From: Solirubrobacter pauli
GTDB taxonomy: Bacteria; Actinomycetota; Thermoleophilia; Solirubrobacterales; Solirubrobacteraceae
Direction: 5' to 3'
Length of the DNA: 64,000 nucleotides
Assembly: GCF_003633755.1 (NCBI RefSeq)
Contig: NZ_RBIL01000001.1
Coordinates: 667,426 to 731,425 of the forward strand
The notes under the pieces were generated by a model. The model was not told the origin of the DNA. It was given only the letters and a program-made list of their open reading frames with translations, and searched no databases. This document shows, piece by piece, positions 4,016 to 40,003 of the stretch; the first letter of the stretch is position 1, and the number at the start of each line of letters is the position of its first letter. A program made the position numbers and the translations under genes.

Positions 4016-4354
4016 GTGCCGATGAGCAGCCGTCACTCGCAAGCCTCAACTTCGCGGGCAGCGTTCGCATCCATGCTCGTGTTGATCGCCGTCCTGGCCG
4101 CCGGCTGTGGACCGGCTGCAATCGTGCGGCGCGCAGCGTCGATCCCACAGGAGGCAGAAGGGCTCGAAGGCTTCGTCAACGCGGCGAACGCGCTGATCGG
4201 TCCCGCGCTCGTCGCGATGGCGGCCGTCGCACCGATTGGGTGCGTCGTCGGCGCCGGCGCCCTCATGTTCGGCAATCGCCGCGGTCTCGTGATCATCGGG
4301 TCAACACTCGGCACCTTGGTCTTTCTCGGGTCCGTCAAGGGCATCGTCGCGTGA
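4016..4354 (+). CDS. Small membrane protein, probable VirB2/TrbC-like pilin subunit
   Basis: A 112-residue protein with a signal-like N-terminal helix ending in LAAGCG (also a possible lipobox), followed by two hydrophobic helices: around ALIGPALVAMAAVAPIG, and around GLVIIGSTLGTLVFLG. Signal segment plus two membrane helices, directly before a VirB6-like gene and a VirB4 gene, is the usual layout of VirB2/TrbC pilins. The assignment rests on topology and position, not on sequence identity. The GTG start lies six bases after AAGGGAGA; an ATG two codons later is the alternative. It is the first gene of the operon. Confidence 0.55.
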   Translation: MPMSSRHSQASTSRAAFASMLVLIAVLAAGCGPAAIVRRAASIPQEAEGLEGFVNAANALIGPALVAMAAVAPIGCVVGAGALMFGNRRGLVIIGSTLGTLVFLGSVKGIVA

Positions 4355-4363
4355 GGCGACGGG

Positions 4364-6160
4364 GTGCTCGTGCTCGCCTTCCTCAGCCGGCTCCCGCGCT
4401 GGCCGCGACTACTGCTCTTCGCGCTCGTATTGCTCGCGATCGGATCGTCCGGCAGCGGTCCTCAAGACGCACAGGCGCTGCCTCCTATCCCGATCGGAGG
4501 CGGACTCGGCGACATCATCGGCGCGGGCGCAGACGCAGTCACCGGCGGCGTCGGTAGCGCAGCCGTCGAGGGATTCGGCGCGCTCCTCGCGAAGCTCTTC
4601 TCTTGGTCGGCAGAGATCATCAACCGCGAGCTGCTCACCTGGCTGATCTCGGTCCCCAACTACGCGATCTCGCCAGGTTCGAACGTCCCGCTTGAGGCCC
4701 GGAGCAACCTCGCCGAGCTAGCGTCGACGACTTCGGCGATGTCGTTCGCGGCGCTCGCCGCGGTCGGGACCGTAGCCGGGCTTCGGTACTGGGCCGCGGG
4801 CCTTAGCGGTTCCGGCGGCTTCGAGGCGTTGCAGGGTCTCGGGCGCATGCTCGCCGCGGCGTTGTTCGTGGTCGCGTGGCCTTGGCTGTTCCGGACATGC
4901 GCGGACCTCACGAACGCCGCCGCACGCGGCCTGATGGGTAGCGGCACGGTGCTTGACGACACGAGCCGCTTGCTCGGCGTGGCGTTCTCGTCAGCGATCT
5001 CGTTCAACTTCTTGGCGATCGTGATCGCGATCGGCGCGGGGCTGCTGTTCCTTGCGCTGCTGATGTGCAAGATCGTCGCCAGCGCGAGCACGGCGCTGCT
5101 CTACGCCGGCATGCCGTTCGCCGCGATCGCCTGGGTTATCCCCGAAACGGCGTGGCTCGCAGCCGCTGCGATGCGGGCGTTCGCGGTCGTGCTGGTGATC
5201 CCGCTCGCCTGGGCACTCTGCTTTGCGACGTTCGCGGCCGTAGGCATGGACGCCCTGGCAGTCGAAGGAGCCGGGTCCGTCGCGGATGCGCTGATCATGC
5301 CGCTCGTCGCGCTCGCGCTGCTGTGGATCACCGTCTCCTTGCCACGCACGCTGGGCCGGATGGCGCTGCTTGGGGGAATGCACAGTGGCGGCTTCCTCGC
5401 TCGCACAGCCTCGTACGTCACTGCCAGGCGAACGGACGCCCTGATCAGCCAAGCGCTCCCCTCTCCCCTCGGCCGGTCCTCCGGTCAGGCCGCGTCTGGT
5501 GCGTCGTCAGGAACAGGATCCGGCGGTGGCCGGGCAGGCCAGAAGACACGAACCGTCACGACGCTGGCAACCACGGCCGGCATCGCCGCTGCTGGCCCGG
5601 CGGCGCCGGCGGCCGCCGCCGGGACCGGCGCAACCGCCAAGGGCGGTTCCGCCGCCGCCGCCGCGCAACCGGGGCCAGCCGGAGCGGCGAACCCCCGACC
5701 GGCCCCGGCGACGCCGTCCCCGCAGGGACTGCCGTCGCCGTCGTGGCAGGAGATCCGCGACCGCGTCCCCGAGGAGTTGAAGGCAGCGAAGGCAGCCGGT
5801 AGCTCCACCACGAGGTCGGACGTCACCGCCGCCATGAGCGCGCTGAATCCCGACAGCCAACGGGCGGTGCGCACGCTGGCCGAGACCAAGAGCGGACGCA
5901 TCACCGGCGAGATGGTGCACCAGGCCGCACGCAGCGACATCGGTGAGCCTGAGCGCAATGCGTTCCGCGTCCTCGCCGCCGCCACGCCCGAGCTGCGCCG
6001 GCAGGGCATCGACGACTTCTACGCGCCCCAGGAATCCGCTCCTTCGCGCCCGCCCGTTCCAGGCACGGGCGAGGGCGTCATGCCTACGCCACCCGGACCG
6101 CCTCTAAGCCAGCCCCCGACCTCGATTCATGACAACCAGCGACCGAGCGACGCGACGTGA
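4364..6160 (+). CDS. VirB6/TrbL-like polytopic conjugation membrane protein
   Basis: A 598-residue protein with an N-terminal signal-like segment, a Gly-rich stretch and about six to seven membrane helices between residues 120 and 330. It ends in a long Ala/Gly/Pro-rich hydrophilic tail (residues about 370-598). This is the architecture of the VirB6/TrbL family, which forms the inner-membrane platform of type IV secretion systems. The GTG start follows the pilin stop by nine bases. The 3' end overlaps the next gene in a GTGA. The tail may be cytoplasmic and contact the ATPases. The family call is from topology and context. Confidence 0.7.
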   Translation: MLVLAFLSRLPRWPRLLLFALVLLAIGSSGSGPQDAQALPPIPIGGGLGDIIGAGADAVTGGVGSAAVEGFGALLAKLFSWSAEIINRELLTWLISVPNYAISPGSNVPLEARSNLAELASTTSAMSFAALAAVGTVAGLRYWAAGLSGSGGFEALQGLGRMLAAALFVVAWPWLFRTCADLTNAAARGLMGSGTVLDDTSRLLGVAFSSAISFNFLAIVIAIGAGLLFLALLMCKIVASASTALLYAGMPFAAIAWVIPETAWLAAAAMRAFAVVLVIPLAWALCFATFAAVGMDALAVEGAGSVADALIMPLVALALLWITVSLPRTLGRMALLGGMHSGGFLARTASYVTARRTDALISQALPSPLGRSSGQAASGASSGTGSGGGRAGQKTRTVTTLATTAGIAAAGPAAPAAAAGTGATAKGGSAAAAAQPGPAGAANPRPAPATPSPQGLPSPSWQEIRDRVPEELKAAKAAGSSTTRSDVTAAMSALNPDSQRAVRTLAETKSGRITGEMVHQAARSDIGEPERNAFRVLAAATPELRRQGIDDFYAPQESAPSRPPVPGTGEGVMPTPPGPPLSQPPTSIHDNQRPSDAT

Positions 6161-6528
6161 ACAGGGCTTTCAAGCATCTCGAAGCCAAGCTCCGGTTCGC
6201 CGACCTGACCATCGGCCAGTGGGCGGCTGTGATCGCCGGGCTCTTGTTCGGACTCGTCTTCGCCCAGTACCTGAGCCCGATCGGCGGGCTGTGGGGAGCG
6301 GTACTCGGCATCTACCTCGGCGCCCTGCCGGCGAGCGCCGCGTTCTTCGCCAGCCTCAGCGAGTTTGATCTCGGCGGCTTGCTCGTCGCCGCGCTCCGCC
6401 GCCGCCGTGAGCCGGGCCGCTACCTGCCGGGCGCAGGTTCGACGGGCATCGGCTACCGCGTGACCGTCGCCGTGAAGGAGACTCCGACGACGACGGACGA
6501 CCTCGATCTGGTGGCCCTGTGGGATTGA
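6157..6528 (+). CDS. VirB3/PrgI-like membrane protein
   Basis: A 123-residue protein with two adjacent hydrophobic helices (residues about 22-42 and 44-66) and a basic segment, then a short soluble tail. Small two-helix proteins of this kind, located immediately before the VirB4 gene, are VirB3 in Gram-negative and PrgI in Gram-positive conjugation systems and dock the VirB4 ATPase to the membrane. It starts with a GTG that overlaps the VirB6-like stop by four bases, and it overlaps the VirB4 start by ten bases. Tight translational coupling is likely. Confidence 0.65.
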   Translation: MNRAFKHLEAKLRFADLTIGQWAAVIAGLLFGLVFAQYLSPIGGLWGAVLGIYLGALPASAAFFASLSEFDLGGLLVAALRRRREPGRYLPGAGSTGIGYRVTVAVKETPTTTDDLDLVALWD

Positions 6529-9164
6529 CGATCGCAGAGCGCCGTGAGCCTGACGAGCTGCCTGAGGCCGGCGAACTCGTGCCCGTGGAAGCGATCGACC
6601 GCACTGGTCTGATCGTGCGCAGCGACGGAGCGTTCGTCCGCATCCTGCGCGTCACTCCCGCGAACCCGCTCGTGCTGTCGGCTGACGACGCGAGGCGGGC
6701 GGCGACGGGCTTCGCCACGACGCTGGAGAAGCTGCGGGCGGGGCAATCGATGCAGTTCTACGTCGACGCCCGCCCCGTGCACCTCGACGACGTCCTGCTG
6801 CGGCTGCGTGAAGAGGTTGAGGCCGTCGCCGGTCCCGCGCCCACCGCCACCACTTCGGTTGCTGCGGGCTCGCTTTCCCGCTGGCGCCTGTACGCGGCGG
6901 TCGAGCAGTCCCTCCGCATGCACGGTCGGGGACAGTCGGCGATCCAACTCGACGCGTACGCGATCATCCCGTACTTCCCCGCGCGGCGGGGCGCCCGAGC
7001 GGCGCTCAAGCTCGCCTCCTCCGCCCCGTTGGAACGGCCGCTCGCCGAACATCGTCGAGCCGTGCGCGAGAGCCAGGGGCACGTCGACGCAATTCACGCC
7101 GAGCTCGAAGCGGCCGGGCTGCCCACTCGCCAGCTCAACGGATCTGAGGCCCTGACGTTGCTGTGGCAGCGGCTGAACCCGACGACTGCCGACCGGCGGC
7201 GGGATGGCCTCAGCACCGAGATCCTCGGCGAGTGCGACCCCGTACGTGACCGCGAGCAGGCTCGGGGAGCCGCCACCGCTCTCCGGGAGCGCCTCGCTCA
7301 GTCCAGCCTTGATCTCAAGCGCGGGCGCCATCTCGTGGAGGTCGGTCAAGACGTCGAGCAGACGATCTACGTCCACACGACCGCGCAGCAGACCGCGCTT
7401 GGCTGGTTGTTGGAAGCGATGCTCACGCGCCAGCCCTTCGCGTTGAGCGTGCATGTCCGGGCGCTCGACCGGCGCCGTGAGCGGCAACGGTTCAAGCTCG
7501 GCCATCGTCGGCTGTTCGCCATCAACCGCGGAGCGGAGCAACGGGGCCGTGTCCCGGACTTCGATCGCTACGCCCAAGAGGACGAGTACCGCGACCTGCT
7601 GACCGAGATGGCCGGCCGAGAGCGAGCACGGCTGTTCGAGGTCTCGGTCTATCAGGCGTTGCGGGCTCCAGGACCGAAGCCAGACCTCGAAGCACTTGAC
7701 GAGGCCGTCGCGTACTGCGCGGACGCCATGGAGACAGCGGTCGACTGCAAGGTCGGCCGCGGGGAGTTCCGTCAGCGGGAGCTCTGGGCGAGCACGCTGC
7801 CACTCGGCCAAGACGTCGCCCGGCGTGTCCGCAAGTACACGACGACGAACGCCGCGGACACGGTTCCCCTGGTGGGGACGGGCTGCGGCTCACCTCACGG
7901 GTTCCCGTTCGCCTTCGCGGACCCGGGTCGCACGCTTGAGCGCCTCGATCCCTTCGATCGGGAGCACCCCAACCACACCCTGCTGATCTCGGGGCGCAGC
8001 GGCTCGGGCAAGACGATGCTGGCCAACATGATCCTCGCGCGCCTGGTCACGCTGGGCGCGCGCGGGTTCGTGATCGACCGTGCCGGCCATTACCAGCTCC
8101 TCACGCGCATGATCGACGGCGCGCAGCAGATCGAACTCGGCGTTGCGCAGTCGCCGTACGCGATCAATGCGTGGGACGTGCCCGATCCGCGACACGTGCC
8201 GAGTGACAAGGTCGCCTACCTCCTTGCACTGCACCAGCTGATGATGGGTGAAGAGGGACTCACGCGATCGGAGCTCGCCCAGCTCGGCGAGGCCATCCGC
8301 GCCGTGTACGCCCGCTCGGCGACGCTTGAGGACCAGTCGCCGTGTGAGTCGATGTTGCGAGACGAGCTCTTGGCCACCGCGAGCTTCCATCAGCGGGAAG
8401 GGGGTCACGAGCTGGCGTCCGTCGCCCGGAGCCTGGCCACCCGCCTGAGCGAATGGTGCGGCGACGGTAGCTACGCCTACCTGCTCGACCGTCCGACCAC
8501 GGTGCCCCACGACAGCCCGCTGGTGGTCTTCGATACCCGGCGATGCCCGCAGGACGTCCTGCGCCCCGTGATGTTCTCGATCATGGAGTACGTAACGAAC
8601 ACCGTCGAGCGGCACTGGAATGCGTACCACTCGACGGAGCACGCCGGAAGCGAGCCGCGATTCGCGGGCCGGTCGATCATGCTCATCGACGAGGCGTGGC
8701 ATCTCGTCAGCCGGCGCGAGACGGGTGAGTACGCCAACGACCTGGCCTTGCGGGCACGGCACTTCGGGCTCGTGCTCGCCGTCATGTTCCAGCAGCTTTC
8801 GCAGGCCAACACCGAACACGGTCTGGCGCTCCTGCAGAACGCGACGATGCAGCTCCTGCTGGCCCAGCATCCGAGCGAACTCGACTTCACGCAGTCCGCG
8901 CTCATGCTCTCCGACGAGGAGCGCGAGCTCGTCGCCCGCCTGAAGACGGTGAAGGGCAGTCACGCGGAGATGCTGTGGATCAACGGGACGCGCGGTCGGG
9001 GACGCGTTTCGGCTCGAGTCGGCCCGCTGGAGTACTGGGCGTTCACGTCCGATCGCGGTCACGACGTCCCGCAGCGCGAAGCCGCGCTCCGCGTGCATGG
9101 CGGGGACGTGTGGAGCGCGCTTCACTCGCTCGCAAGCAGCGACGCGTCGCCGCCACTCGCATGA
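6519..9164 (+). CDS. virB4: VirB4/TraC-type conjugation ATPase
   Basis: This 881-residue protein has the VirB4 layout: an N-terminal domain of about 450 residues, then a RecA-like ATPase domain. Walker A is ISGRSGSGKT near residue 490 and Walker B is IMLIDEAW near residue 720. Its last segment includes the conserved VirB4-like pattern in which aged or stuck subunits are checked (FQQLSQ near residue 760). VirB4 powers assembly of the secretion channel and pilus. The GTG start lies inside the end of the VirB3-like gene. The stop overlaps the next ATG in an ATGA. Confidence 0.9.
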   Translation: MGLTIAERREPDELPEAGELVPVEAIDRTGLIVRSDGAFVRILRVTPANPLVLSADDARRAATGFATTLEKLRAGQSMQFYVDARPVHLDDVLLRLREEVEAVAGPAPTATTSVAAGSLSRWRLYAAVEQSLRMHGRGQSAIQLDAYAIIPYFPARRGARAALKLASSAPLERPLAEHRRAVRESQGHVDAIHAELEAAGLPTRQLNGSEALTLLWQRLNPTTADRRRDGLSTEILGECDPVRDREQARGAATALRERLAQSSLDLKRGRHLVEVGQDVEQTIYVHTTAQQTALGWLLEAMLTRQPFALSVHVRALDRRRERQRFKLGHRRLFAINRGAEQRGRVPDFDRYAQEDEYRDLLTEMAGRERARLFEVSVYQALRAPGPKPDLEALDEAVAYCADAMETAVDCKVGRGEFRQRELWASTLPLGQDVARRVRKYTTTNAADTVPLVGTGCGSPHGFPFAFADPGRTLERLDPFDREHPNHTLLISGRSGSGKTMLANMILARLVTLGARGFVIDRAGHYQLLTRMIDGAQQIELGVAQSPYAINAWDVPDPRHVPSDKVAYLLALHQLMMGEEGLTRSELAQLGEAIRAVYARSATLEDQSPCESMLRDELLATASFHQREGGHELASVARSLATRLSEWCGDGSYAYLLDRPTTVPHDSPLVVFDTRRCPQDVLRPVMFSIMEYVTNTVERHWNAYHSTEHAGSEPRFAGRSIMLIDEAWHLVSRRETGEYANDLALRARHFGLVLAVMFQQLSQANTEHGLALLQNATMQLLLAQHPSELDFTQSALMLSDEERELVARLKTVKGSHAEMLWINGTRGRGRVSARVGPLEYWAFTSDRGHDVPQREAALRVHGGDVWSALHSLASSDASPPLA

Positions 9165-10479: not shown

Positions 10480-11744
10480 CACGGCTTCTCTCGTTCCTCG
10501 TGATCGTCGGTGTTGCCATCGCGACGAGCGGGTGGCTGCTCAACCAGTTCCGACGGACGCTTAGCATCGAGGCACCGCCGCCACGACAGGCTCTCTCTGA
10601 CAAGCCGGTCGCCCCGACAGTCGCGCGAGCGGGGGGCGGCCCACAGTTCGCTGGCCTGAGCCTGCCGGTCCTGATCGCGGTGGAGGTCGCCGGCGGTCTC
10701 CTCGGGCTGGCCACCACGGGAGGCGTCCTTGGTGTCCAGCGAGCTCGGGCTCGACGTCACCGCGAATACGCCCGATACGTGCTGCACCTCTCGCAACACG
10801 ATGAGGCCAAACCCCAGGACGTCGAGGACATGATGGAGGCGTTCGGCCACCTCGTCCGCGCCCTCCCGGCAGATCGTGCACGGCACGGGCAGCCGCACCT
10901 GGCGTTCGAGCTCGACCACGCCGTTGGCGAATCCGGAGACCTCGAATGGTCGCTCTCGATGCGATGCCCGCCGCGGGTCGCGGGCGCGCTGGATGGTGCG
11001 CTCAGCGCGGCCTACCCCGATGCTCGTCTTGGTCGCATCGGAGGAGAAGCGCCGCAGCCCGTGCCGTCCCGCTCTTCCGTCCCCGGTCACGTGCTGCGGT
11101 TCCGCAAGCAGCGCGGCTTCCTGTATCCGCTCCTTCCTCCGGCCGATGACCTGGCCTCGCCCCCGCTGGAGGCGATCGCGCACGCTCAGGCCTCCGTGGC
11201 CGTCCCGTCAACGATCCGCTTCACCCTGACGCCCGCGCCGAGCAGCCTCGAAGCGGTCACGCGTCGGCTGTTCCGGCACCAGGAAAACCGGCTCGCGCGT
11301 CAGGAGCGCTGGGGTCTCCCGGAAGGCGGGCTGCGATCGACCCTCAACCGCGCCGAGATGGCCAACGCGAGCCGCGCACAGAACCGCGGGCTGTTCTGGC
11401 TCGAGTGCGTCGTCGCTGCCGGCACCCACGAGACGTGTCTGCAGCTCGCCGCGGCGGTCCAGGCACGGCGGGGTGAGAACCGACTGCATCGCCGGTGGAT
11501 GCCGGTCCGCCAGCAGCTCTACCGCCGCCGGTTTGCAACGGCGATCACACCGCTCGTCCCCTCGCCCCGCTCATTGATCTCCGCCGCCGAAGCAGCCCAC
11601 CTGCTGGCCCTCCCGACCGCTCGCATGAAGGGCGTCCCGGTCCGTCGCATCACGATCCCGCGGATTCCGATGCCGCCGGAGATCTTCCGGTCGCCGGCCG
11701 AGCGCACCGTGCTGGTGCCGATGGATCGTCAGGAGGCGGCGTGA
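10476..11744 (+). CDS. Membrane-anchored coupling-protein partner (N-terminal module of HerA/VirD4-like ATPases)
   Basis: A 422-residue protein with a hydrophobic helix at the extreme N-terminus (LLSFLVIVGVAIATSGWLL) and a second near residues 60-85, then a soluble region of about 330 residues. The soluble part (for example LEWSLSMRCPP and LDGALSAAYPDARLG) resembles the region that precedes the ATPase domain in single-chain actinobacterial conjugation ATPases. Here that ATPase is encoded separately by the next gene, which lacks membrane helices. I infer that the two gene products form a split coupling protein. Both ends are GTGA overlaps. Confidence 0.6.
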   Translation: MTRLLSFLVIVGVAIATSGWLLNQFRRTLSIEAPPPRQALSDKPVAPTVARAGGGPQFAGLSLPVLIAVEVAGGLLGLATTGGVLGVQRARARRHREYARYVLHLSQHDEAKPQDVEDMMEAFGHLVRALPADRARHGQPHLAFELDHAVGESGDLEWSLSMRCPPRVAGALDGALSAAYPDARLGRIGGEAPQPVPSRSSVPGHVLRFRKQRGFLYPLLPPADDLASPPLEAIAHAQASVAVPSTIRFTLTPAPSSLEAVTRRLFRHQENRLARQERWGLPEGGLRSTLNRAEMANASRAQNRGLFWLECVVAAGTHETCLQLAAAVQARRGENRLHRRWMPVRQQLYRRRFATAITPLVPSPRSLISAAEAAHLLALPTARMKGVPVRRITIPRIPMPPEIFRSPAERTVLVPMDRQEAA

Positions 11745-14446
11745 CCGTCCGGCACCGTGCTCTGACGTACCCGACGCTTCCGGTCTTGCGGTCAGCGAAC
11801 GGAGCCGGGCTGATCCACCCGGACGACCGGCGCTACGGTTCGTTGCTCGTTGGCGGCCAGGGCAGCGGCAAGACCGCCGCGATGCTCCGCACCTACCTCA
11901 ACGACATCCGCGACGAGAACGCCGCCGTGGTCGTCCTTGACCCGAAGAGCGAGCTGAGCCGGCTCTGCCTGCAGCTGACTCCGCCCGACACGCCGAAGCG
12001 CGTCTGGTTCCTCGATCTCGGCCACCCCGCGTTCGGGATGAGCCCGTTGCGATTGAGGGACTCGGAGCCACTCCCCCTGCAGGCGACGGCGATCGCCGAC
12101 AACATCGTCGCAGCGCTGCTCGACATCAACGAGAACCAGCTCTTCCAGTCGTCGCGGCGATACCTCTACCACGCGGTGATCGGTTCCCTCGCGCTCGCCG
12201 TCAAGCGAGATCGGCGGGCCCGCTTTGAGGACGTCTACCAGCTCCTCCTGCCCTCCAAAGCGGACCTCCGCACGGTTGTGTACCAAGCGTGCGCGGACAC
12301 GCCCGACCTCGACCAGACCGCCGAGTTCTTCCGCACGGAGCTGCCGCAGGACCTCGGCCTCGCCGGCAGCGCGACCGCCCAGCGCCTGGACGCCCCGCGC
12401 AACAAAGTCAGCGGGCTCACGGGCGTGCCGCCCCTGCGTCGCTTCTTCAACCACACGAGCGACGTCGCGCTCGCCGACATCGTCGAAGCCCGGGACATCC
12501 TCATCGTCGACGCGAACATGGCGGCGATCGGAGCCGAGAACAGCAAGGCGTGCATGCACTTCGTGCTCCGGATGCTGCACACGCAGCTCCAGCGACAAGT
12601 GCGACGGCCGGAGAGCGAGCGGCCGCGCGTGGCGCTGCTCGCCGACGAGGCGCACTACCTCGCGTCCACGGACAACGTCGTCGACCAGATCGCAACGCAC
12701 CGGGCCGCGGGTCTAGATGTCACGTTCGGCCTGCAGTACCTCGCGCAGCTGGGATCGGGCTCCGAGCACCAGGAGAAGATCCGCAAGGGCGTGATCAACC
12801 TCCTGCAGAGCCGGTTCCTATTTAGGCTCGGCGATCACGGAGACGCGGAAGAGGCCGTCCGGATCGCGATGGCCGTGTACTCGACCATGATCCGCGACGA
12901 TCCGGACTCGCGAGCTCGCCTTCGGGTCACGCCCGAGCAGATCCTCAACCTCCCAGTCCACCATTGCCTTGCCTCGTGGATCGCCGGTGGAACCCGCGCT
13001 GCAAGCTTTATCGGCCAGACATTCCCGTTTCCGTCCGGAGCCAACGACACCTGGGCCCGCGTGCATCTCGAGCGCCTCCACACCACCGTCGGCCCGTATC
13101 CGGAAGTCCTGGCCTCGACACTTGGGAGCTCTACGGACCACGAGCGAGCCGCAGTTGTGCAGCGCCCCAGCGTGAAAGCGATCGAGCGCGCGGCTTCCGA
13201 GCCGGACGAACCAGAGCCCACACCATCTCGGCCGGCTCCGCGGGTCGAGCGAGCGGCTTCTGCTCCGGCATCGACGCCGGAGATCAGCCCAGTACTCCGG
13301 GTCGTGGGCCGTGAGCCGTACGACGCGGATCGAGAGCGGCCGACGGAGCCGGCGCCGCAGGCGCTGGCCGAGCTTGCGTTCATCGACCGGATCAACGAAG
13401 TCAAGCCGCCGGAGCACAAACCGCCGTCCGAGCACCTGCCGCGCCTCTACGAGGCGGACTACGCGATCCTCGCACTCCTTGACCGGGTTGGCGTCGCGCT
13501 TCCCTCACTCATCGGTCGCGCGGCAATGCCCGGCAGGGAGCCCAAGAGCGTCCGCCATCGTCTAAACAAGCTCTACGAGCACGGCCTCATCGCTCGCGCG
13601 GCGATCGGCATCAGCGACCGGACCGCCGCTGACGGCCGGCTTCCGTCGCTCTGCTCGCTCACGCGGTTCGGCATGGAAGCCGCGCAGAAGCGGCTGCCGC
13701 CGGCGATCCATCCGCAGCGTGAATGGAGGCAAGGCGAGCAACGCCGCGCGGCGAGCGTCCCGCATGACCTGCACGCGCTCTCCTGGGCGATCGAGTTGCA
13801 CCGCGTCGTGGGGGACTTGGCGACGGACTACTGGCGCACCCCGCGCTACGCCACGGGCCGCTACCCGGTACCGCAGATCGGCAACGGCCACAAGCGGCAC
13901 CCGATCACCGTCGCCGAGCTCGACGTCGCCGAGGGCCACGCCTACCTAGACGTGCCGGAGTTCCGCGAGATCAAGCCGGATCTCTCGCTCGAACTGCGCG
14001 TTCCGTCCACGCGGCTGATCTTCGATCTCCTCGTCGAGCTGGACCTAACGGGCCGTCCTTCCTACAACAAGGACAAGCTGCTCGCGTACGACGCGTTCCT
14101 CACCGGTTGGGCGCTCTCGCATCGCCGCTTCGCGGGGCTCGGTACGCGTCCCGTCGTGCTGTTCGTGTTCCGCGACCTCCGAGCCGCGCTTGCGTGCGCG
14201 CGTGAAGCTGATGCCCTGCTTCGCGGGAGGATTGGTCCGATGGGCCGCCCGGCGATCGAGTGGTCCTTTCCGGGTCGACAGCACCTGTTCTTCGCAGCCG
14301 AGCCGGACGTCTACCACGGGTCTCTGCGGGCGTTTGCGCTCCACTCGGAGAACGGTGACGAGCCAGCGCGAACAGATGACGACCGACTCCCCGTACGCAC
14401 CGTGGAGCTGTTGTCCCGAACCGTCGTGGGCGCCGCCGACCGCTAA
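11741..14446 (+). CDS. VirD4-type coupling ATPase fused to a replication-relaxation-like domain
   Basis: A 901-residue soluble protein. Residues 1-460 form the coupling ATPase, with Walker A GGQGSGKT near residue 40 and Walker B LLADEAH near residue 300; it has no membrane anchor of its own. After a Pro/Ala-rich linker (about 470-560), residues about 565-850 match the replication-relaxation family of plasmid proteins: a winged-helix start (EADYAILALLDRVG, RLNKLYEHGLI, SLTRFGMEA), then HDLHALSWAIEL and the nuclease-like core EIKPDLSLEL...LLVELDLTG. The usual role of coupling ATPases is to feed DNA to the channel. The fused domain probably recognises or processes the plasmid DNA. It is the last gene of the operon. 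Confidence 0.8.
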   Translation: MTVRHRALTYPTLPVLRSANGAGLIHPDDRRYGSLLVGGQGSGKTAAMLRTYLNDIRDENAAVVVLDPKSELSRLCLQLTPPDTPKRVWFLDLGHPAFGMSPLRLRDSEPLPLQATAIADNIVAALLDINENQLFQSSRRYLYHAVIGSLALAVKRDRRARFEDVYQLLLPSKADLRTVVYQACADTPDLDQTAEFFRTELPQDLGLAGSATAQRLDAPRNKVSGLTGVPPLRRFFNHTSDVALADIVEARDILIVDANMAAIGAENSKACMHFVLRMLHTQLQRQVRRPESERPRVALLADEAHYLASTDNVVDQIATHRAAGLDVTFGLQYLAQLGSGSEHQEKIRKGVINLLQSRFLFRLGDHGDAEEAVRIAMAVYSTMIRDDPDSRARLRVTPEQILNLPVHHCLASWIAGGTRAASFIGQTFPFPSGANDTWARVHLERLHTTVGPYPEVLASTLGSSTDHERAAVVQRPSVKAIERAASEPDEPEPTPSRPAPRVERAASAPASTPEISPVLRVVGREPYDADRERPTEPAPQALAELAFIDRINEVKPPEHKPPSEHLPRLYEADYAILALLDRVGVALPSLIGRAAMPGREPKSVRHRLNKLYEHGLIARAAIGISDRTAADGRLPSLCSLTRFGMEAAQKRLPPAIHPQREWRQGEQRRAASVPHDLHALSWAIELHRVVGDLATDYWRTPRYATGRYPVPQIGNGHKRHPITVAELDVAEGHAYLDVPEFREIKPDLSLELRVPSTRLIFDLLVELDLTGRPSYNKDKLLAYDAFLTGWALSHRRFAGLGTRPVVLFVFRDLRAALACAREADALLRGRIGPMGRPAIEWSFPGRQHLFFAAEPDVYHGSLRAFALHSENGDEPARTDDDRLPVRTVELLSRTVVGAADR

Positions 14447-14849: not shown

Positions 14850-15419
14850 CTACTGCATGAGAAGGGAGCTGAGGAGCCCTAGGTATCCACCCGTTGCGAC
14901 CAGAACGACCGCTTGCCGGAGGACGGTCACGCGAGTTGCGACGGTGTTGGCACCGGTCGACATCATTCCCGCGTACGTCTCTGCGAGCGCGAAGTCGACG
15001 GGCCGGGCGAGTCCGCTCAGAACCGGCGCATGGATCACGCTGAAGTCAGCTCGAACGACCACAATCGCAACAGCGCCTGCCGTGCCCCATCCGAGAAGCA
15101 CTAAAGCCACGAGTCCGAGTACCCAGTGGATAAATGTTGGATCGCCTTTGACTAGCGTCGTGCCGATGGCGGCCGTCACGGCGGCAGCGACCGTGTACAG
15201 CCATTGGGCCCGGGCCTGAACGCGCTCAAAGTCGCGGGCCTGCCGGTCAAGCTCACGCCGCCCCTCCTCGATCATCAGGAAGAGTTCGTAGGGACTCCAG
15301 CCGGCGAGGGAGGCAGCAGCGACTCGATCCGCGGAATGGCTCGGAATCTCACGTCCGGGCGCCAACAGTCCCAGGACGTGCTCCGCGTATATTCGTTGGC
15401 CGCGCCAGAACTCGGGCAT
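14850..15419 (-). CDS. Three-helix membrane protein of the graspetide cluster
   Basis: A 189-residue protein. Residues 1-70 are soluble and end in a charged, coiled-coil-like segment (EEGRRELDRQARDFERVQAR). Membrane helices follow at about 72-90, 97-122 and 166-187. Its ATG abuts the TAA of the ATP-grasp gene with no gap, so the two are almost surely co-translated. It resembles no transporter with an ATP-binding domain and no protease motif is visible. Possible roles are immunity, export support or membrane tethering of the product; this is inference from position only. Confidence 0.65.
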   Translation of the reverse strand: MPEFWRGQRIYAEHVLGLLAPGREIPSHSADRVAAASLAGWSPYELFLMIEEGRRELDRQARDFERVQARAQWLYTVAAAVTAAIGTTLVKGDPTFIHWVLGLVALVLLGWGTAGAVAIVVVRADFSVIHAPVLSGLARPVDFALAETYAGMMSTGANTVATRVTVLRQAVVLVATGGYLGLLSSLLMQ

Positions 15420-16355
15420 TTATTCCTCGTCTCGGCTAGGCGAGCGAAGGAACGCTGCTATAGCCGCAGCGATCCCTTGAGAGACAGGATCGGGTAGAAA
15501 GAGCCACTGGCCTGCGGGGTTGAGGTCGAGGAACACGTGGTTAGCCCCGGTATCGATCCAGTCCTGGCTCGAATATCCCACCCCCAAACTGTTCGCGAGT
15601 GCGATCGCCTGCCGCTCCACTCCCGGTGACGGAGCGATGCGGAATGAGTGATGCGCTTCTCGGACCTCGCGCCAGTCCAAGGGAAGGTCTCGAGCGTCTA
15701 AGGCGCACGTCCAAGCCTGTTTTCCCACGGTCACGACACGCAGATGCCGCTTAGCGGGCACCGCCTGCTGGACAAGGAACGGGGCTCCTGCGAGATCCAC
15801 AAGTCGCGGGTCTGACCGTGCAAGGTCGCGGGCCAACACAACCATGGCCTCGCCATCCTCACGGCGGTACTGCGCCGGCCCGAGTGGCTTGACGACAACG
15901 ATGTCACCCCACCACTTGGGAGCAGCGTCGATGCTCGTCGAGACAACTGTGTCGGGCACTGCGATGTCCAAGCGGGCCGCGTGGCGTGCCTGCAGGAGCT
16001 TGCTTTCGGTGGCGATCATGCGGCTATACGGCGAGACCCATTCGACGTCAGGGTCTTCAGCTACGGAAGTCACTAGCTTGAGCCAGGCGCTTCGAACCGC
16101 GCTCTCGAGCGAACCGGACACCAGGCCGGTTCTCCACTGCGGCGGGGCGAGTCGCCGGATCCACCCGCGAGTTGTTTTGCGAAGAGCAATCGACCTGCCC
16201 TCGAGCGACAACGACGGTCCGTGTAAAACGATCTCGGCCGATTCGAGCACTGCAGTGTTCACGAGCATGGGTACCGAATCACCGAGTTCGGCGACCACGG
16301 CCGCAACATGCTCATCTTCGGTATTCCCGACGATGATGATCTGGGCGTCAGGCAG
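15420..16355 (-). CDS. ATP-grasp peptide ligase (graspetide / microviridin-type maturase)
   Basis: About 311 residues. The family signatures are clear: WVSPYSRMIATESKLLQARHA (substrate-side loop and K/Q), the strand DIVVVKPLG, FLVQQAVPAKRHLRVVTVG, then DWREV and the C-terminal metal and phosphate site VFLDLNPAGQW. These match MvdC/MvdD-like enzymes, which use ATP to join side-chain carboxylates of a precursor to Thr, Ser or Lys. A GTG at 16298 would cut off the first strand, read here as IIIVGNTEDEH. A CTG at 16355, seven bases after GGGGAG, restores it and is preferred. The gene overlaps the end of precursor 1 by eight bases. Confidence 0.85.
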   Translation of the reverse strand: MPDAQIIIVGNTEDEHVAAVVAELGDSVPMLVNTAVLESAEIVLHGPSLSLEGRSIALRKTTRGWIRRLAPPQWRTGLVSGSLESAVRSAWLKLVTSVAEDPDVEWVSPYSRMIATESKLLQARHAARLDIAVPDTVVSTSIDAAPKWWGDIVVVKPLGPAQYRREDGEAMVVLARDLARSDPRLVDLAGAPFLVQQAVPAKRHLRVVTVGKQAWTCALDARDLPLDWREVREAHHSFRIAPSPGVERQAIALANSLGVGYSSQDWIDTGANHVFLDLNPAGQWLFLPDPVSQGIAAAIAAFLRSPSRDEE

Positions 16356-16536
16356 TCTGGGACTCCCCGATTCCGAGTGGTCCGCCGAGATCAGCCGGCT
16401 CGCCCTCGTAGACCGCCTCGACGTCTCGGTCGACGGTCTCCTTCGTTGACGTGTACTGAGTCTCTCCCGCGGGAGTACCGGCAGGGGCCGTCATGGCAAG
16501 GACTTCGTACAGCGATCGCTTAGCGCGTATCGACAT
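16348..16536 (-). CDS. Graspetide precursor peptide 1
   Basis: A 62-residue peptide with a short leader containing LYEVLA and APAG, then a core-like segment GETQYTSTKETVDRDVEA followed by VYEGEP and a tail. The Thr/Ser/Lys residues (26, 29-32, 34) precede Asp/Glu (36, 38, 40, 44, 46), as expected for side-chain ester or amide rings. It is clearly paralogous to the peptide encoded just upstream. The ATG follows AGAAGAGGAG at good spacing, lies within the 3' end of precursor 2 and is followed directly by the ligase gene. Ring pattern and cleavage site cannot be read from sequence. Confidence 0.75.
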   Translation of the reverse strand: MSIRAKRSLYEVLAMTAPAGTPAGETQYTSTKETVDRDVEAVYEGEPADLGGPLGIGESQTA

Positions 16537-16693
16537 GGCGAGTCGGCTCCTCTTCTAACAGCGCCTCGGAGTCGTGGTCGAGCGTCTCTTTGCTCTTGGT
16601 TTCGGTCGTCTCTCCGCGTCCGCCACCGGCAGGGGCGAGGGTCGCCAGGTGCTCGTAAAGGGTGGTCGAAGAACGTACGGAGTCGCGCATCAT
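16520..16693 (-). CDS. Graspetide precursor peptide 2
   Basis: A 57-residue peptide from the first of two adjacent ATG codons. Its leader holds LYEHLA and APAG, and the core-like segment reads GETTETKSKETLDHDSEA followed by LLEEEP. Aligned with precursor 1, the shared pattern is LYExLA-x2-APAG...GET-x2-T-x2-KET-x-D-x-D-x-EA-x2-E-x-EP. The frame is open 27 codons further upstream, but that extension has no counterpart in precursor 1. There is no Shine-Dalgarno sequence before the twin ATG; a promoter-like pair right upstream suggests a leaderless transcript. It is the first gene of the cluster. Confidence 0.7.
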   Translation of the reverse strand: MMRDSVRSSTTLYEHLATLAPAGGGRGETTETKSKETLDHDSEALLEEEPTRHVDTR

Positions 16694-16696
16694 GCG

Positions 16697-16725
16697 AATG
16701 TAACGCCGGTGAACGGCGGACACAA
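16697..16725 (-). promoter_or_regulatory. Candidate promoter of the graspetide cluster
   Basis: On the minus strand TTGTGT (16725-16720) and TACATT (16702-16697) are separated by exactly 17 bases. The -10-like box ends three bases before the twin ATG of precursor 2, so a start site at normal distance would fall on the ATG itself, giving a leaderless mRNA. The boxes match the consensus only partly (3/6 and 4/6). Confidence 0.3.
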
Positions 16726-16818
16726 CGCCCGTGGATGGCCCGGCAGAGCGCGGCTCTGGGGTCCGGGCGGTCATCGGACTTCGGACCGTCGACCTACCAC
16801 ATCGTAGGGGTCTGCGAC

Positions 16819-17045: not shown

Positions 17046-17780
17046 GTGTCGGAACAGCCGCGAAACCCGTGGGAAGGCTTTCTCACTTTCCTCGACCGCG
17101 CCGCCGACTGGGTCAGGGAACACCAGGACGAGATCCGCGCCGCAGGCATCTGGGCCGCCGCTGGGCGAGCCGGCCGTGTCGCACGTCTTTACGTACCCTT
17201 CGATCCCGAAGCCTGGATCCAGATCGAGCAGGCGCAGCGACAGTCTGAGCCTGACGTTGAGCCGGATTACGGCTCGCTCCTCGTCTCTCTTTATGGCCCT
17301 GGCGGGATCGGACATGAGACTTTGCGCGAGGAACTTCGTAACTCGACGTTGCTTCGCGACCGCACAGGTGAGGTGGAGGAGGTACTCGATTCTCTTGCCG
17401 ACCAGAGGTACTTCGTTACGGTCTGCGGCGCGCTGCCCCTGGTCGAATACGTACTAAGCAGCGCCGCCGGGAAGTGGAAGGACCCTCGCAAGCATCTCGA
17501 AGCGCTAGAGGCCCGTCTGGACGAGCCAGCGTCCGCCGTGGACCTTGATCTGCTGCTCGATGCGACGGCGGTCGAGATGGTTCTCGAGGAAGTGCCCGAA
17601 ATCTGGAAGGACGGGCGTCAGGACGTCGGAGCTATCAATGACCGCCTGAACCGGCATCGTGCCCTGCATGGGACAGCGCGCGGCTGGGATGACCTCGCAA
17701 ACGCCACTCGAGCAGTGCTTTTGCTAGCTGCAGTTGCAAGGATTTCGACCCCGCTGCTGGGGCCGCCAAGCGGGCCGTGA
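17046..17780 (+). CDS. Hypothetical protein with a C-terminal HEPN-like R-x4-H motif
   Basis: A 244-residue protein in the frame given. The C-terminal helix pair contains NRHRALHG followed by NATRAVLLLAAVA. This fits the R-x4-H motif and trailing helix of HEPN-type domains, which are often RNases or nucleic-acid-binding domains in defence and toxin proteins. The N-terminal part is helical (NPWEGFLTFLDRAADWV) with no known motif. The GTG start has a weak GGCGGG upstream; the true N-terminus may lie upstream in another frame. It lies between the graspetide cluster and the partition genes, with no partner gene visible. Confidence 0.55.
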   Translation: MSEQPRNPWEGFLTFLDRAADWVREHQDEIRAAGIWAAAGRAGRVARLYVPFDPEAWIQIEQAQRQSEPDVEPDYGSLLVSLYGPGGIGHETLREELRNSTLLRDRTGEVEEVLDSLADQRYFVTVCGALPLVEYVLSSAAGKWKDPRKHLEALEARLDEPASAVDLDLLLDATAVEMVLEEVPEIWKDGRQDVGAINDRLNRHRALHGTARGWDDLANATRAVLLLAAVARISTPLLGPPSGP

Positions 17781-18006
17781 GGTTCGGTCGAGCGATACTC
17801 CCCCACGCGACACTTCGTGCAAGGACCGCGGCGACCCACGTCGGCCGTCGACGTACCGACCGAAGCGACGGACCCACTGCTGCTTTGCGCGAATAGCGGT
17901 CGCGCAGCGAGTCATGACGAGCAGCCACGATCAGGCGGGAATCGCCGGAGGCCAACGTCGGGAACTTCCGTGATCCGCTAGGCGGTACGCACTCAGGTCG
18001 GAAGGG
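17781..18006. other. Intergenic region before the partition operon
   Basis: About 226 bases with no plausible gene. It must contain the promoter of parA and leads into the parS-like site. Confidence 0.4.
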
Positions 18007-18022
18007 TGTTCCACGTAGAACA
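18007..18022. promoter_or_regulatory. parS-like centromere site
   Basis: The 16-mer TGTTCCACGTAGAACA differs from the consensus parS TGTTTCACGTGAAACA at three positions. It keeps both TGTT/AACA arms and the central CACGT. It lies 20 bases before the parA start, the usual place for a partition site that ParB binds. Chromosomal parS sites have the same core, so whether it serves this ParB needs testing. Confidence 0.6.
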
Positions 18023-18041
18023 CCCAGCCTGGGAGGACCGC

Positions 18042-18860
18042 ATGATCACAATCGCCGTGCTGAGCCAGAAGGGTGGCGTCGGAAAGACGCTGACGTCCGC
18101 CAACGTTGCAGCGGCCCTCGCTGACCAGGGCCTGAAAGTGCTTATGGCGGATTTCGATCCCCAGGCTGACCTCTCCGCGAGCTGGGGGCTCGACGATGAT
18201 GACCCCCGGCCACGGATCGAGAACTTCCTCGACTCCTCGGGCCGAGATCTTCGCGACGCGGTCGTGGCCGTGTCGGAGGATCGCGACATCGGCCTGCTGG
18301 CCACCGGCTACGAACGCCTCCGACAGCAGACGTCTCGGCTCCTCGCAGGTGACGGGAGCGAGCTCGCCCGTCTGCTTGCGCCGCTTCACGACGAGGTGGA
18401 CGTAGCCCTGATCGACACGCCGGCGGGAGACACTGTGTTTGGCCGCCAGGCCATCGTCGCCGCGGACGAGGCGATCGTTCCGATGTTGCCGGGATTCCAC
18501 GAGTTGCGCGCGATGACGCGAGCGCTAGACGTGATTGAGGCTCGGGCCGAGCACGAGCGAACGCAGCTGGGGCTGCTGGGCGTGCTGGTCGTGAACGCGG
18601 ATCCGCGATGGCGCTCGACGAAGGAGTACGCGCACCATCTCGCGCAGATGGAACGCGCAAACGAGATTTCGCTGTTCGAGACGGTGATCCCGCGTCATCA
18701 GCCGGTCACGGAACACGCGCGCTTCGGGCTTCCGACCGTCTGGCTGCGTCCGTCGTGCAGCGTCGCCGTCGCGTACCGGCAAGTCGCGGTCGAGGTTCGC
18801 GAGCGACTCGGTCGCCGGGTCCCGGCGGTCATCTCGTCGGCGACGAGCGGTGCGTCGTGA
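18042..18860 (+). CDS. parA: ParA partition ATPase
   Basis: A 272-residue protein starting MITIAVLSQKGGVGKT, the complete deviant Walker A motif at residues 9-16. DFDPQADLS and LIDTPAGDT follow as the A' and Walker B motifs. ParA ATPases bind DNA non-specifically and move ParB-bound plasmid copies. The ATG has GGGAGG five to six bases upstream; an upstream GTG would run the gene across the parS-like site and is rejected. The stop overlaps the parB start in a GTGA. Type Ia versus Ib: there is no long N-terminal HTH, so it is closer to the chromosomal/Ib style. Confidence 0.92.
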   Translation: MITIAVLSQKGGVGKTLTSANVAAALADQGLKVLMADFDPQADLSASWGLDDDDPRPRIENFLDSSGRDLRDAVVAVSEDRDIGLLATGYERLRQQTSRLLAGDGSELARLLAPLHDEVDVALIDTPAGDTVFGRQAIVAADEAIVPMLPGFHELRAMTRALDVIEARAEHERTQLGLLGVLVVNADPRWRSTKEYAHHLAQMERANEISLFETVIPRHQPVTEHARFGLPTVWLRPSCSVAVAYRQVAVEVRERLGRRVPAVISSATSGAS

Positions 18861-19756
18861 CGCGTCCGGTCCCAAGGGAGCTTCCCGGGCGGCGGCGCGA
18901 TCGCCCACCGGCCTCGGAGCACGATGCGTTCGGCAGCGGGATGGCCCTCCCAAGCTCGGCGATGTGCACGCTGGCGATCGATGCCGTCACGCCGAACCCC
19001 GACCAGCCTCGCAAGCACTTCGCCGACGAGGCGCTTGAGGCGCTGGCAACTTCGCTACGCGCGCGTGGCGTTCTGCAGCCGGTCCTTGTGAGGCCGCTCG
19101 GCGACGGCCGATTTGCGCTGATTGCCGGCGAGCGGCGATGGCGCGCGGCACAGCTCGCCGGGCTGACCGAACTCCCAGCGTTCGTCCGTGGCGACACCGA
19201 CGACGCGACGGCCCTCGAGCTCGCCCTGATCGAGAACGCTGCGAGGGAGGATCTGACTCCTGTCGAGGAGGCTCGGACGCTCAGCACGCTGATCAACGAT
19301 CTGGGGTTGACCCAGGGTGCGCTCGGCAAGCGCATCGGGCGCAGCCGCGCCGACGTGGCCAACACGCTCCGGTTGCTCGACTTGCCCGACGAGGTGTTGG
19401 ACCTCATTTCGGAAGGGCGGCTGAGCAAAGGCCACGGGAAGAGCCTGCTGGTCGCGAAGACGGCCGAGCAGCGGATCAACCTCGCGCAGAGGGCCGTCGC
19501 GAAGAACTGGTCCGTGCGCCAGCTGGAACGAGCCATCCAGGGCACGCCGAAGAAGAGCTCCAAGAGGACCGAGACCAACAGGGCCGTCGCAGACGAGCTC
19601 AACGCTCGCGCCGCTCACGCCATCGACCTGCCCGTGAGCGTCCGAGCTCTGAGCGAAGGGTTCGCTGTACGCGTCGTCGCCGCCGACCGAGAAACAGCGG
19701 AGCAGATCCTGGCTCACCTGCGTGACTCAGCGGCGCCGGACACTTCTCAACGCTGA
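18857..19756 (+). CDS. parB: ParB partition protein
   Basis: A 299-residue protein with the ParB N-terminal CTPase motifs NPDQPRKHF, GERRWRAAQLAG and ENAAREDLTPVEEA, and then the helix-turn-helix (LTQGALGKRIGRSRADVANTLRLL) that reads parS. The C-terminal part would form the dimer domain. The GTG overlaps the parA stop, so the pair is translationally coupled. A first segment of about 35 Arg/Pro-rich residues precedes the conserved domain and would contact ParA. The hairpin just downstream probably ends the transcript. Confidence 0.92.
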   Translation: MTRPVPRELPGRRRDRPPASEHDAFGSGMALPSSAMCTLAIDAVTPNPDQPRKHFADEALEALATSLRARGVLQPVLVRPLGDGRFALIAGERRWRAAQLAGLTELPAFVRGDTDDATALELALIENAAREDLTPVEEARTLSTLINDLGLTQGALGKRIGRSRADVANTLRLLDLPDEVLDLISEGRLSKGHGKSLLVAKTAEQRINLAQRAVAKNWSVRQLERAIQGTPKKSSKRTETNRAVADELNARAAHAIDLPVSVRALSEGFAVRVVAADRETAEQILAHLRDSAAPDTSQR

Positions 19757-39473: not shown

Positions 39474-39833
39474 CTAGCGCGAGTTGACCTTCACGACGCG
39501 CTCGAGCTCGCGGAACTCGGCTTCGTCGATGCGCCGGAAGTTCCGGCCGGCCACCGGACGCTTCGGCCCGCGCGGAGCGATCAGCAACGGCTCGGTCGGG
39601 ACGGCGTAGCGCCAGCGCTCGGCGTGCTCGGTCTGCTCCTCGCGCTCGAACACCGGGCCGATCACGCGGACCACGGCGGCTACGTGCTTGCCCTCGATGT
39701 TGTAGATGACCAGCTCATCACCCGGCTGCGCGCTCACACGGACATGGCTCGCGAGTTGCGTGAACCCGTAGGTCTCCTCGCGCATCGCCTCGAACCCACC
39801 CGGTTGCTTGAACTTGAACAGCCAGTAGCCCAC
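39474..39833 (-). CDS. EVE-domain protein
   Basis: A 119-residue protein that starts GYWLFKFK and continues PGDELVIYNIEG and AVVRVIG. This matches the EVE (PUA-like) fold that reads modified bases in DNA or RNA. EVE proteins are often found with restriction and other defence genes. The GTG just before GYW was chosen because EVE domains begin there; the frame is open 23 codons further upstream. It is a single gene, with no nuclease fused. Confidence 0.65.
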   Translation of the reverse strand: MGYWLFKFKQPGGFEAMREETYGFTQLASHVRVSAQPGDELVIYNIEGKHVAAVVRVIGPVFEREEQTEHAERWRYAVPTEPLLIAPRGPKRPVAGRNFRRIDEAEFRELERVVKVNSR

Positions 39834-40003
39834 GTGGGCAACGCTAGCGCCGACTAGGCCCCCACAAGCCACCCGACGGTCCAGGCTGCACGCCACCAAC
39901 ACACGCGCGCACGCCAGGCGCGCCGGCCGGCACGACGCCGCTCAGCGGGCCAACTCGAGCCCTTGCCAAACGGCAGGCTCCGACGTTCCCGTTGCTGCCG
40001 CGT

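Follow-up and report, generated by a model that had tools for sequence, protein, structure and literature searches.

A compact graspetide-type operon with a possibly PycTM-like membrane protein on an integrative conjugative element of Solirubrobacter pauli

In a 64,000-nucleotide stretch of the Solirubrobacter pauli genome (C1:667426-731425; the whole stretch is referred to as the window), we identified a compact cluster of about 2 kb on the minus strand, which encodes, in this order, precursor 1, precursor 2, an ATP-grasp ligase and a three-helix membrane protein (“3TM”). By sequence, the cluster is well supported as a graspetide operon. Sequence analysis also shows the conserved motifs and the co-occurrence of its genes, the mobile context and a remote profile similarity of the membrane protein. 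Taken as a whole, the data are best explained by a graspetide operon on a conjugative element with a PycTM-like membrane protein as peptide receptor, an explanation that we consider rather probable. According to this model, a compact graspetide operon, graspetides being omega-ester ribosomally synthesized and post-translationally modified peptides (RiPPs), would ride as cargo on an integrative conjugative element. The single ATP-grasp ligase would bind both precursors, which have an N-terminal LYxxL motif, activate Glu/Asp side chains of the core and join them to Thr (or Ser) side chains, so that each precursor would most likely acquire two ester rings (-36 Da). The 3TM protein, probably of PycTM-like descent, would act as the cell’s own receptor for the cyclized peptide. 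This receptor could provide self-protection or release for a peptide used in competition, which appears somewhat likelier, or it could be a membrane effector that is switched by the peptide. The four genes of the cluster are as follows.

16520-16690, minus strand: precursor 1, 57 amino acids from an ATG at 16690 (the listed open reading frame, ORF, starts at 16774); leader TLYEHL, core TTETKSKETLDHD
16348-16536, minus strand: precursor 2, 62 amino acids; leader SLYEVL, core TQYTSTKETVDRD
15420-16355, minus strand: graspetide-type ATP-grasp ligase, with a probable CTG start at 16355-16353 (listed as a GTG ORF, 15420-16298)
14850-15419, minus strand: 3TM protein, a three-helix membrane protein with remote PycTM-like similarity at the level of the family profile

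All four genes of the minus-strand set outlined in a preliminary description were recovered, and that observation is confirmed. The two precursor genes overlap, and the start codon of 3TM abuts the ligase stop. The listed GTG frame of the ligase is too short: the conserved N-terminus (IIIVG..DEHV) sits upstream of the GTG at 16298, and the gene extends to approximately 16355. No ATG, GTG or TTG codon is available between the in-frame stop and this conserved N-terminus; the CTG at 16355-16353, which overlaps the stop codon of precursor 2, is likely the ligase start. Within the six frames of the window, the combined leader and core pattern, L[YF]xxL followed by [TS]xxTxxxE[TS]xDx[DE], is restricted to the two precursor ORFs. 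When the 64 kb were resampled 40 times with a Markov-1 model, neither this pattern nor TxxTxxxExxDxD turned up.

The proposal that the cluster encodes two paralogous precursors holds: both share the LYxxL leader motif and an ordered Thr...Glu/Asp core, which in each case is an exact match to TxxTxxxExxDxD, a pattern that we take to be the core motif of the thuringinin group. T, E and D are invariant in all 27 aligned family precursors, and the relaxed pattern [TS]xxTxxxExxDx[DE] fits 17 of them by hand count. In graspetides, each ester formed between Thr/Ser and Glu/Asp corresponds to a loss of 18 Da; as two Thr positions are conserved, two rings per precursor would be expected. Two of the related loci contain an additional frame for a graspetide-like precursor of 59 amino acids, which begins inside the end of the 3TM gene in another reading frame (L024:6922-7101 and L025:9574-9753).

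The window ligase matches the NCBIfam models TIGR04187 (115.6 bits, E 2.5e-33), MvdC (87.2 bits, 1e-24) and MvdD (63.3 bits, 2.1e-17), and TIGR04187, TIGR04185 and TIGR04184 each match all 16 aligned family ligases. The window ligase keeps the motifs KP, HxR, DWR and DxNPxGQW, and the invariant residues of the family include K155-P156, H203, R205, D226-W227-R228 and D276-x-N278-P279-x-G281-Q282-W283; the DxNP portion presumably binds metal. The AlphaFold2 (AF2) model of the ligase has a predicted local distance difference test (pLDDT) score of 91.9. When the family-ligase profile was compared with the sequences of solved structures, AMdnB (7m4s), 5ig8 and 5ig9 (“ATP grasp ligase”; presumably MdnB and MdnC) and CdnC (7mgv) came top among the eight sequences matched, and RimK-type ligases ranked last. 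In a 46-row tree, calculated without the thuringinin and plesiocin ligases and rooted at the midpoint just for drawing, a branch at 100/100 sets the 16 family ligases, including a relative from a Streptomyces plasmid, to one side, with MvdC, MvdD, tgmB, gwsG and 26 other ligases outside the clade. Clustering with non-peptide ATP-grasp enzymes, which had been named as an outcome that would speak against a graspetide ligase, was not seen. These comparisons support placing the ligase within the graspetide-synthetase (maturase) superfamily.

The pairing of this ligase with 3TM extends well beyond S. pauli. A scan of the contig collection with a three-row ligase alignment confirmed 16 of 442 stretches; an earlier scan with a single ligase query had confirmed none of 96. 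The relatives belong to Solirubrobacteraceae, Acidimicrobiaceae, Nocardioides (2), Asanoa, Actinomadura, Microbacterium, other Microbacteriaceae, Leucobacter, Actinotalea, Agromyces, Gulosibacter and Rarobacter. Each of the 18 genomic loci examined, all from Actinomycetota (the window, G049 and L021-L036, with L021 being a contig of G038), contains a ligase-3TM pair, and with the starts as chosen the two genes overlap by up to 8 nt or are separated by no more than 10 nt. The ORF after the ligase has three or four hydrophobic segments in these loci and three predicted helices in the window. The 3TM proteins of L033 and L034, which were not significant with the first three-sequence profile (E 0.51 and 0.19), were admitted by position and shape and align along their full length. 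Since L027-L030, L032, L034 and L035 are counted as one, the loci represent about 12 lineages; the six relatives of L027 in this group are 84-99.7% identical to it over 6.6-11.7 kb, and the near-copies L029 and L035 were omitted from alignments. L024 and L025, among the 12 lineages, are also close to one another in the ligase tree.

Two genomes of the same family as S. pauli, one of them G038, carry three precursors, the ligase and 3TM in identical order, with identities to the window of 47-49% for the ligase and 48-55% for 3TM. Across 396 genomes of the phylum, the ligase profile scores 422-423 bits in two (S. pauli itself and G038) and at most 117 bits in 19 others past E 1e-20. The 3TM profile gives strong matches in two ligase-bearing genomes of this set and weak ones in two others (E 1.6e-7 and 9.3e-4), and among 232 genomes of the order its strong matches are restricted to three genomes, all of which have the ligase. 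No ligase relative was found in viral contigs (12 pattern stretches, none confirmed), and no plasmid record matched the 3TM protein. The ligase was matched by 31 plasmid records; among the matches listed, one is at 41% identity and the other 19 are at 30% or below, and the plasmid relative is annotated just as “hypothetical protein”. More distant graspetide-type ligases were observed at L011-L015 and L086-L089 (genomes G032, G005, G056, G620, G469, G237 and G193), with no significant 3TM match within the stretches fetched.

The AF2 model of 3TM (pLDDT 86.0) consists of three long helices spanning residues 43-91, 96-121 and 141-188. Hydropathy of the window protein is clear at approximately 92-137 and 164-189; because the first segment (73-92) stays below 1.4, the assignment of a third transmembrane (TM) helix rests on the model and the relatives. 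The preliminary description had not recognized the membrane protein family, and this remains true for Pfam: the PycTM model (PF18967) is absent from the 14 families matched by 16 3TM members at E values up to 1. However, 3TM can now be described as a conserved family that is tied to the ligase and has remote similarity to PycTM. The matches in Pfam, NCBIfam and PADLOC are all weak: 8xMP (E 0.016) and SLATT_4 (E 0.059) with a single sequence, a 2TM effector that two members match (0.009 for the better one), PDC-M22A (0.0056), and DUF2157 in one member (0.0073). A sequence search of the PDB with 3TM returned nothing meaningful. Kinship with SLATT/8xMP was considered and rejected, as the likeness consists of weak single-sequence matches, whereas profile comparison gives less than 1% for SLATT_1, SLATT_4 and 8xMP (control profiles of 2-4 sequences). 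In a genome of the same family, an 8xMP membrane protein adjoins a TIR-like ORF (L092:1480-2515; TIR by inspection).

PycTM is the effector of the Pycsar system of anti-phage defence and is described in the accessible text of PMC11224242 as a protein that forms a membrane-spanning pore and is activated by cyclic pyrimidines. Weak whole-genome matches of the 3TM profile led to the stand-alone small membrane proteins L083-L085, which match the PADLOC PycTM model with E values of 2.8e-7 (L083), 0.0025 (L085) and 0.04 (L084). The L083 protein (L083:4898-5404) is a stand-alone membrane protein of 168 amino acids, with no cyclase evident on inspection of the surrounding ORF list; viral contigs contained no relative of it (5 stretches, none confirmed). 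A first hhalign comparison of 3TM with PycTM (96.5%) was discarded as circular, two of the three rows having been picked by the 3TM profile. The reference was therefore set as nine PF18967 proteins above the Pfam cut-off, with L101 and L102, which fall below it, unused and L100 dropped for want of a usable frame. Against this reference, the 3TM family gave 89.4% (E 2e-6, single comparison) with 138 columns aligned in order, and 84.8% after the PycTM alignment was trimmed to 165 well-filled columns. Shuffles that keep hydropathy (blocks of seven) reached at most 40.5% (n=60, mean 4.2) and 48.4% (n=100, mean 8.5), and 33 reversed-and-rotated versions at most 0.6%. With a profile of the nine PycTM sequences, 7 of the 16 3TM members pass the HMMER inclusion line, the best at 14.3 bits.

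When the 3TM and PycTM families are aligned jointly, two features coincide in their columns: a basic-[AT] pair ahead of TM1 and, for most rows, an Arg preceding TM3. In addition to the in-order profile match, the two appear to share an overall layout of a long cytosolic helix, two TM helices, a cytosolic stretch and a third TM helix. They differ in their partners, which for 3TM are a peptide ligase and precursors, with no cyclase gene directly beside the window cluster, and the Pfam PycTM model misses 3TM. Kinship between the two families is, on this sequence comparison, likely but not proven.

The earlier placement of the cluster on a conjugative element can be refined to an integrative element. 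After a tRNA-Leu(GAG) gene (C1:657228-657312) comes a match to a tyrosine integrase (658033-658566), and an exact direct repeat of 57 bp, found at C1:657257-657313 and C1:818271-818327 with the window in between, comprises the last 56 bases of the tRNA-Leu plus one. Besides the window, nine stretches located between C1:645000 and 869700 were searched for the repeat. We read the repeats as attL and attR of an integrated element of about 161 kb, which contains VirB4-like, TrbL-like (under the Pfam cut-off), coupling-protein and ParB genes. As a second integrase match lies within the element (C1:734104), a composite structure is possible. The genes of the window that place the cluster in this context are listed below.

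6519-9164, plus strand: conjugation-operon ATPase resembling VirB4/TraC, with a TraG P-loop domain
11495-14446, plus strand: coupling-protein/relaxation-like protein of the mobile element (TrwB_AAD_bind, Replic_Relax)
17046-17780, plus strand: hypothetical protein of 244 amino acids between the cluster and parAB (nSTAND1 E 0.0085, under the cut-off)
18006-18860: ParA-like frame, named by sequence inspection alone
18608-19756, plus strand: ParB of the element, Pfam match

The cluster is located between conjugation and partition genes, as previously stated, with the coupling-protein gene on one side and the 244-amino-acid gene, which has no significant family match, and parAB on the other. Among the genes directly surrounding the cluster, the sole region checked, there is no exporter or other transporter gene and no methyltransferase gene (PIMT included), in agreement with the earlier account, and no leader peptidase gene. 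Six proteins of the window element have no match (E 1e-5) in the 18 family loci, and the operon is thus not tied to one conjugative backbone. Other genes of the element encode a GmrSD-type restriction protein (58054-59931), an EVE-domain protein (39474-39902, under the cut-off) and a HATPase_c_3 protein (1741-3699). ARAGORN places a tRNA-Pro(GGG) at window positions 5586-5667, inside the TrbL-like ORF 4364-6160.

Several observations weigh against the receptor model set out above. The ring chemistry, the number of rings, the role of the leader and the interaction between peptide and 3TM are inferred. Ring connectivity may vary among the precursors, because 10 of the 27 miss the pattern [TS]xxTxxxExxDx[DE]; the misses comprise two rows from L023, one from L003 and, among the eight rows that L027, L031, L033 and L034 contribute, all but one. 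The window ligase lies under all curated NCBIfam cut-offs (350-475), its best match, TIGR04187, reaching 115.6 bits against 350. The 3TM partner is not universal: on the Streptomyces plasmid L051, which encodes a ligase of 41% identity and a single precursor, no 3TM gene adjoins the ligase. A few kb from its ligase, this plasmid also encodes a protein that looks cyclase-like on inspection and a Crp/Fnr regulator, at 363-1034 and 4322-5038. For 3TM itself, Foldseek and VIA-align comparisons of the model returned unrelated helical bundles and no clear structural relative. The window protein scores -0.2 bits with the PycTM profile, reversed sequences reaching up to 2.8, and the seven Micrococcales rows alone give 1.7% against PycTM. 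Furthermore, when the untrimmed PycTM alignment was rotated in 55 ways, at least six of the rotations reached 91-92% (maximum 91.9%), as high as the true order, which we attribute to a long gappy end that left the core whole. Rotations of the trimmed core gave 84-91% for cuts at columns 5-20, 5-32% at 35-70 and 63-84% at 80 or beyond. As the mid-core cuts lower the score, the signal lies mainly in the cytosolic helix and TM1-TM2, with TM3 adding little. The trimmed-core control places the similarity above chance but limits it to the N-terminal part of the protein, and it leaves the odds that we give to the different readings unchanged.

The strongest competing account is a conventional secreted graspetide, acting as a protease inhibitor or antagonist, with 3TM as an immunity protein or a partner in export or maturation and its resemblance to PycTM incidental; we give this somewhat less than an even chance. 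This account and the defence or addiction module discussed below are two sub-cases of the receptor proposal. No other exporter gene adjoins the window operon, and 3TM diverges faster than the ligase, as immunity proteins would show: over 55 pairs, mean pairwise identity is 29% for 3TM versus 41% for the ligase, and 3TM is the lower of the two in 51. In the accessible portion of PMC8939145, a transport role is proposed for the membrane protein of thuringinin loci (cluster 18), and the graspetides characterized as of that study are all protease inhibitors. However, no leader peptidase gene stands directly beside the cluster, and a Gly-Gly stretch between leader and core (PAGGGRGE) is seen on inspection in precursor 1 but not in precursor 2. 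Three helices without an ATPase would also be small for an exporter, and no transporter stands out among the solved relatives of 3TM, either by sequence or by fold.

A second possibility, which we regard as unlikely, is a defence or addiction module in which an intracellular graspetide restrains a PycTM-like membrane-disrupting effector or triggers it upon infection. The remote similarity of 3TM to a pore-forming protein is consistent with such a function, as are the genes near several relatives. In the L027 lineage, a Thoeris pair lies 0.5 kb downstream of the operon in all seven loci (L027:10120-11565; ThsA macro E 6.5e-58, ThsB TIR E 8.8e-10), with a TrwC relaxase upstream in five of the seven, and in Agromyces a separate TIR-macro pair (L031:9792-11254) follows at a distance of 0.2 kb, downstream and in the same orientation. 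The L027-type arrangement is shared by a closely similar element across several Micrococcales genera. Single PADLOC scans identified a PifA-like KAP protein in L010 (225 bits), PDC-S28 in L025 (983 bits) and an OLD-type ATPase in L033, to which 46 models matched with a top score of 62 bits. A broader scan used neighbours from 15 loci; 87 of the 157 ORFs picked had matches to 168 PADLOC models (1e-8) and to 87 Pfam families (1e-6), of which the 25 commonest per library were inspected, so exporters, peptidases and further defence genes may be present among these neighbours.

These neighbourhoods are suggestive only, and mobile-element cargo clusters with defence genes anyway. The Thoeris link may reflect a single event, since L027 and L031 share a six-row subclade of the ligase tree. 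Of ten neighbours scanned singly, six had no PADLOC match at 1e-5 and one (L036) was marginal, and the window’s own neighbour at 17046-17780 is among these seven. The plasmid member without a 3TM gene likewise argues against a module of this kind. A more specific form of the idea, in which a graspetide takes the place of a cyclic nucleotide in controlling a PycTM-like effector, so that the operon would be a defence or addiction module on Actinomycetota conjugative elements and in defence islands, appears quite unlikely to us.

A role of 3TM in biosynthesis, as a partner of the ligase or as its membrane scaffold, in place of a receptor role appears improbable to us. The start-stop coupling of the two genes would fit such a role, and precedents exist in the accessible texts: partner-dependent graspetide synthetases, MirB/MirC, in PMC13097080, and a membrane scaffold for microviridin, named in a reference title within PMC8939145. 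However, plasmid L051 has ligase and precursor genes without an adjacent 3TM gene, which argues against an obligatory biosynthetic role, and similarity to PycTM is not expected for a scaffold. It is scarcely credible that the ligase is RimK-like, with another protein or a small molecule as its substrate, and that the small ORFs are due to chance. The RimK family model does match 11 of the 16 family ligases (best E 1e-9), but scores with the maturase models are far higher, and at E 0.01 no RimK match is seen for the window ligase. The precursor motifs are kept just upstream of the ligase in the inspected loci and absent from the resampled controls.

The closest known systems include the thuringinin-like graspetides. 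These likewise combine a precursor with one ATP-grasp ligase and have nucleophilic Thr ahead of acidic Glu/Asp. The likeness is one of core motif and published description. As described in the accessible part of PMC8939145, thuringinin loci also carry an uncharacterized membrane protein (cluster 18). In contrast to the present family, with one core per short precursor and one to three precursor genes, thuringinin consists of tandem repeats, is trivalent and has two esters per unit, according to the accessible text of PMC12291112. The TIGR04187 (tgmB/SAV_5884) clusters, which include the graspimiditides, are related through the best NCBIfam model of the window ligase and belong to the same phylum; however, tgmB falls outside the family clade, and the isoaspartyl O-methyltransferase (PIMT) associated with graspimiditide clusters (group 13) has no counterpart among the direct neighbours of the window cluster.

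No description of the ligase-3TM pair was found in the accessible graspetide, RiPP, Pycsar or SLATT literature, supplementary tables excepted. In the accessible text of PMC8939145, clusters 18 and 40 each stand for a family of “uncharacterized membrane protein”, and that of PMC13097080 lists groups 25, 31, 34, 38, 42 and 43 with DUFs (domains of unknown function) or proteins without a match to a hidden Markov model (HMM). Judging from these portions, clusters 18 and 40 or the unnamed groups may include the present family. The class of chemistry is known; the new elements are the membrane protein, which is strictly paired and possibly PycTM-like, together with the ligase clade and the mobile and defence setting.

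The role of membrane proteins at graspetide loci is mostly unexplained, and the present family, which combines a single ligase and a single membrane protein with one to three short precursors, offers a minimal system in which that role could be tested directly. With two rings expected for each precursor, it also yields precise mass predictions for a ligase clade that in the window lies beyond the reach of the curated models. If the kinship with PycTM is true, it would link RiPP chemistry to membrane effectors of phage defence, with the peptide as a possible intracellular signal or antitoxin.

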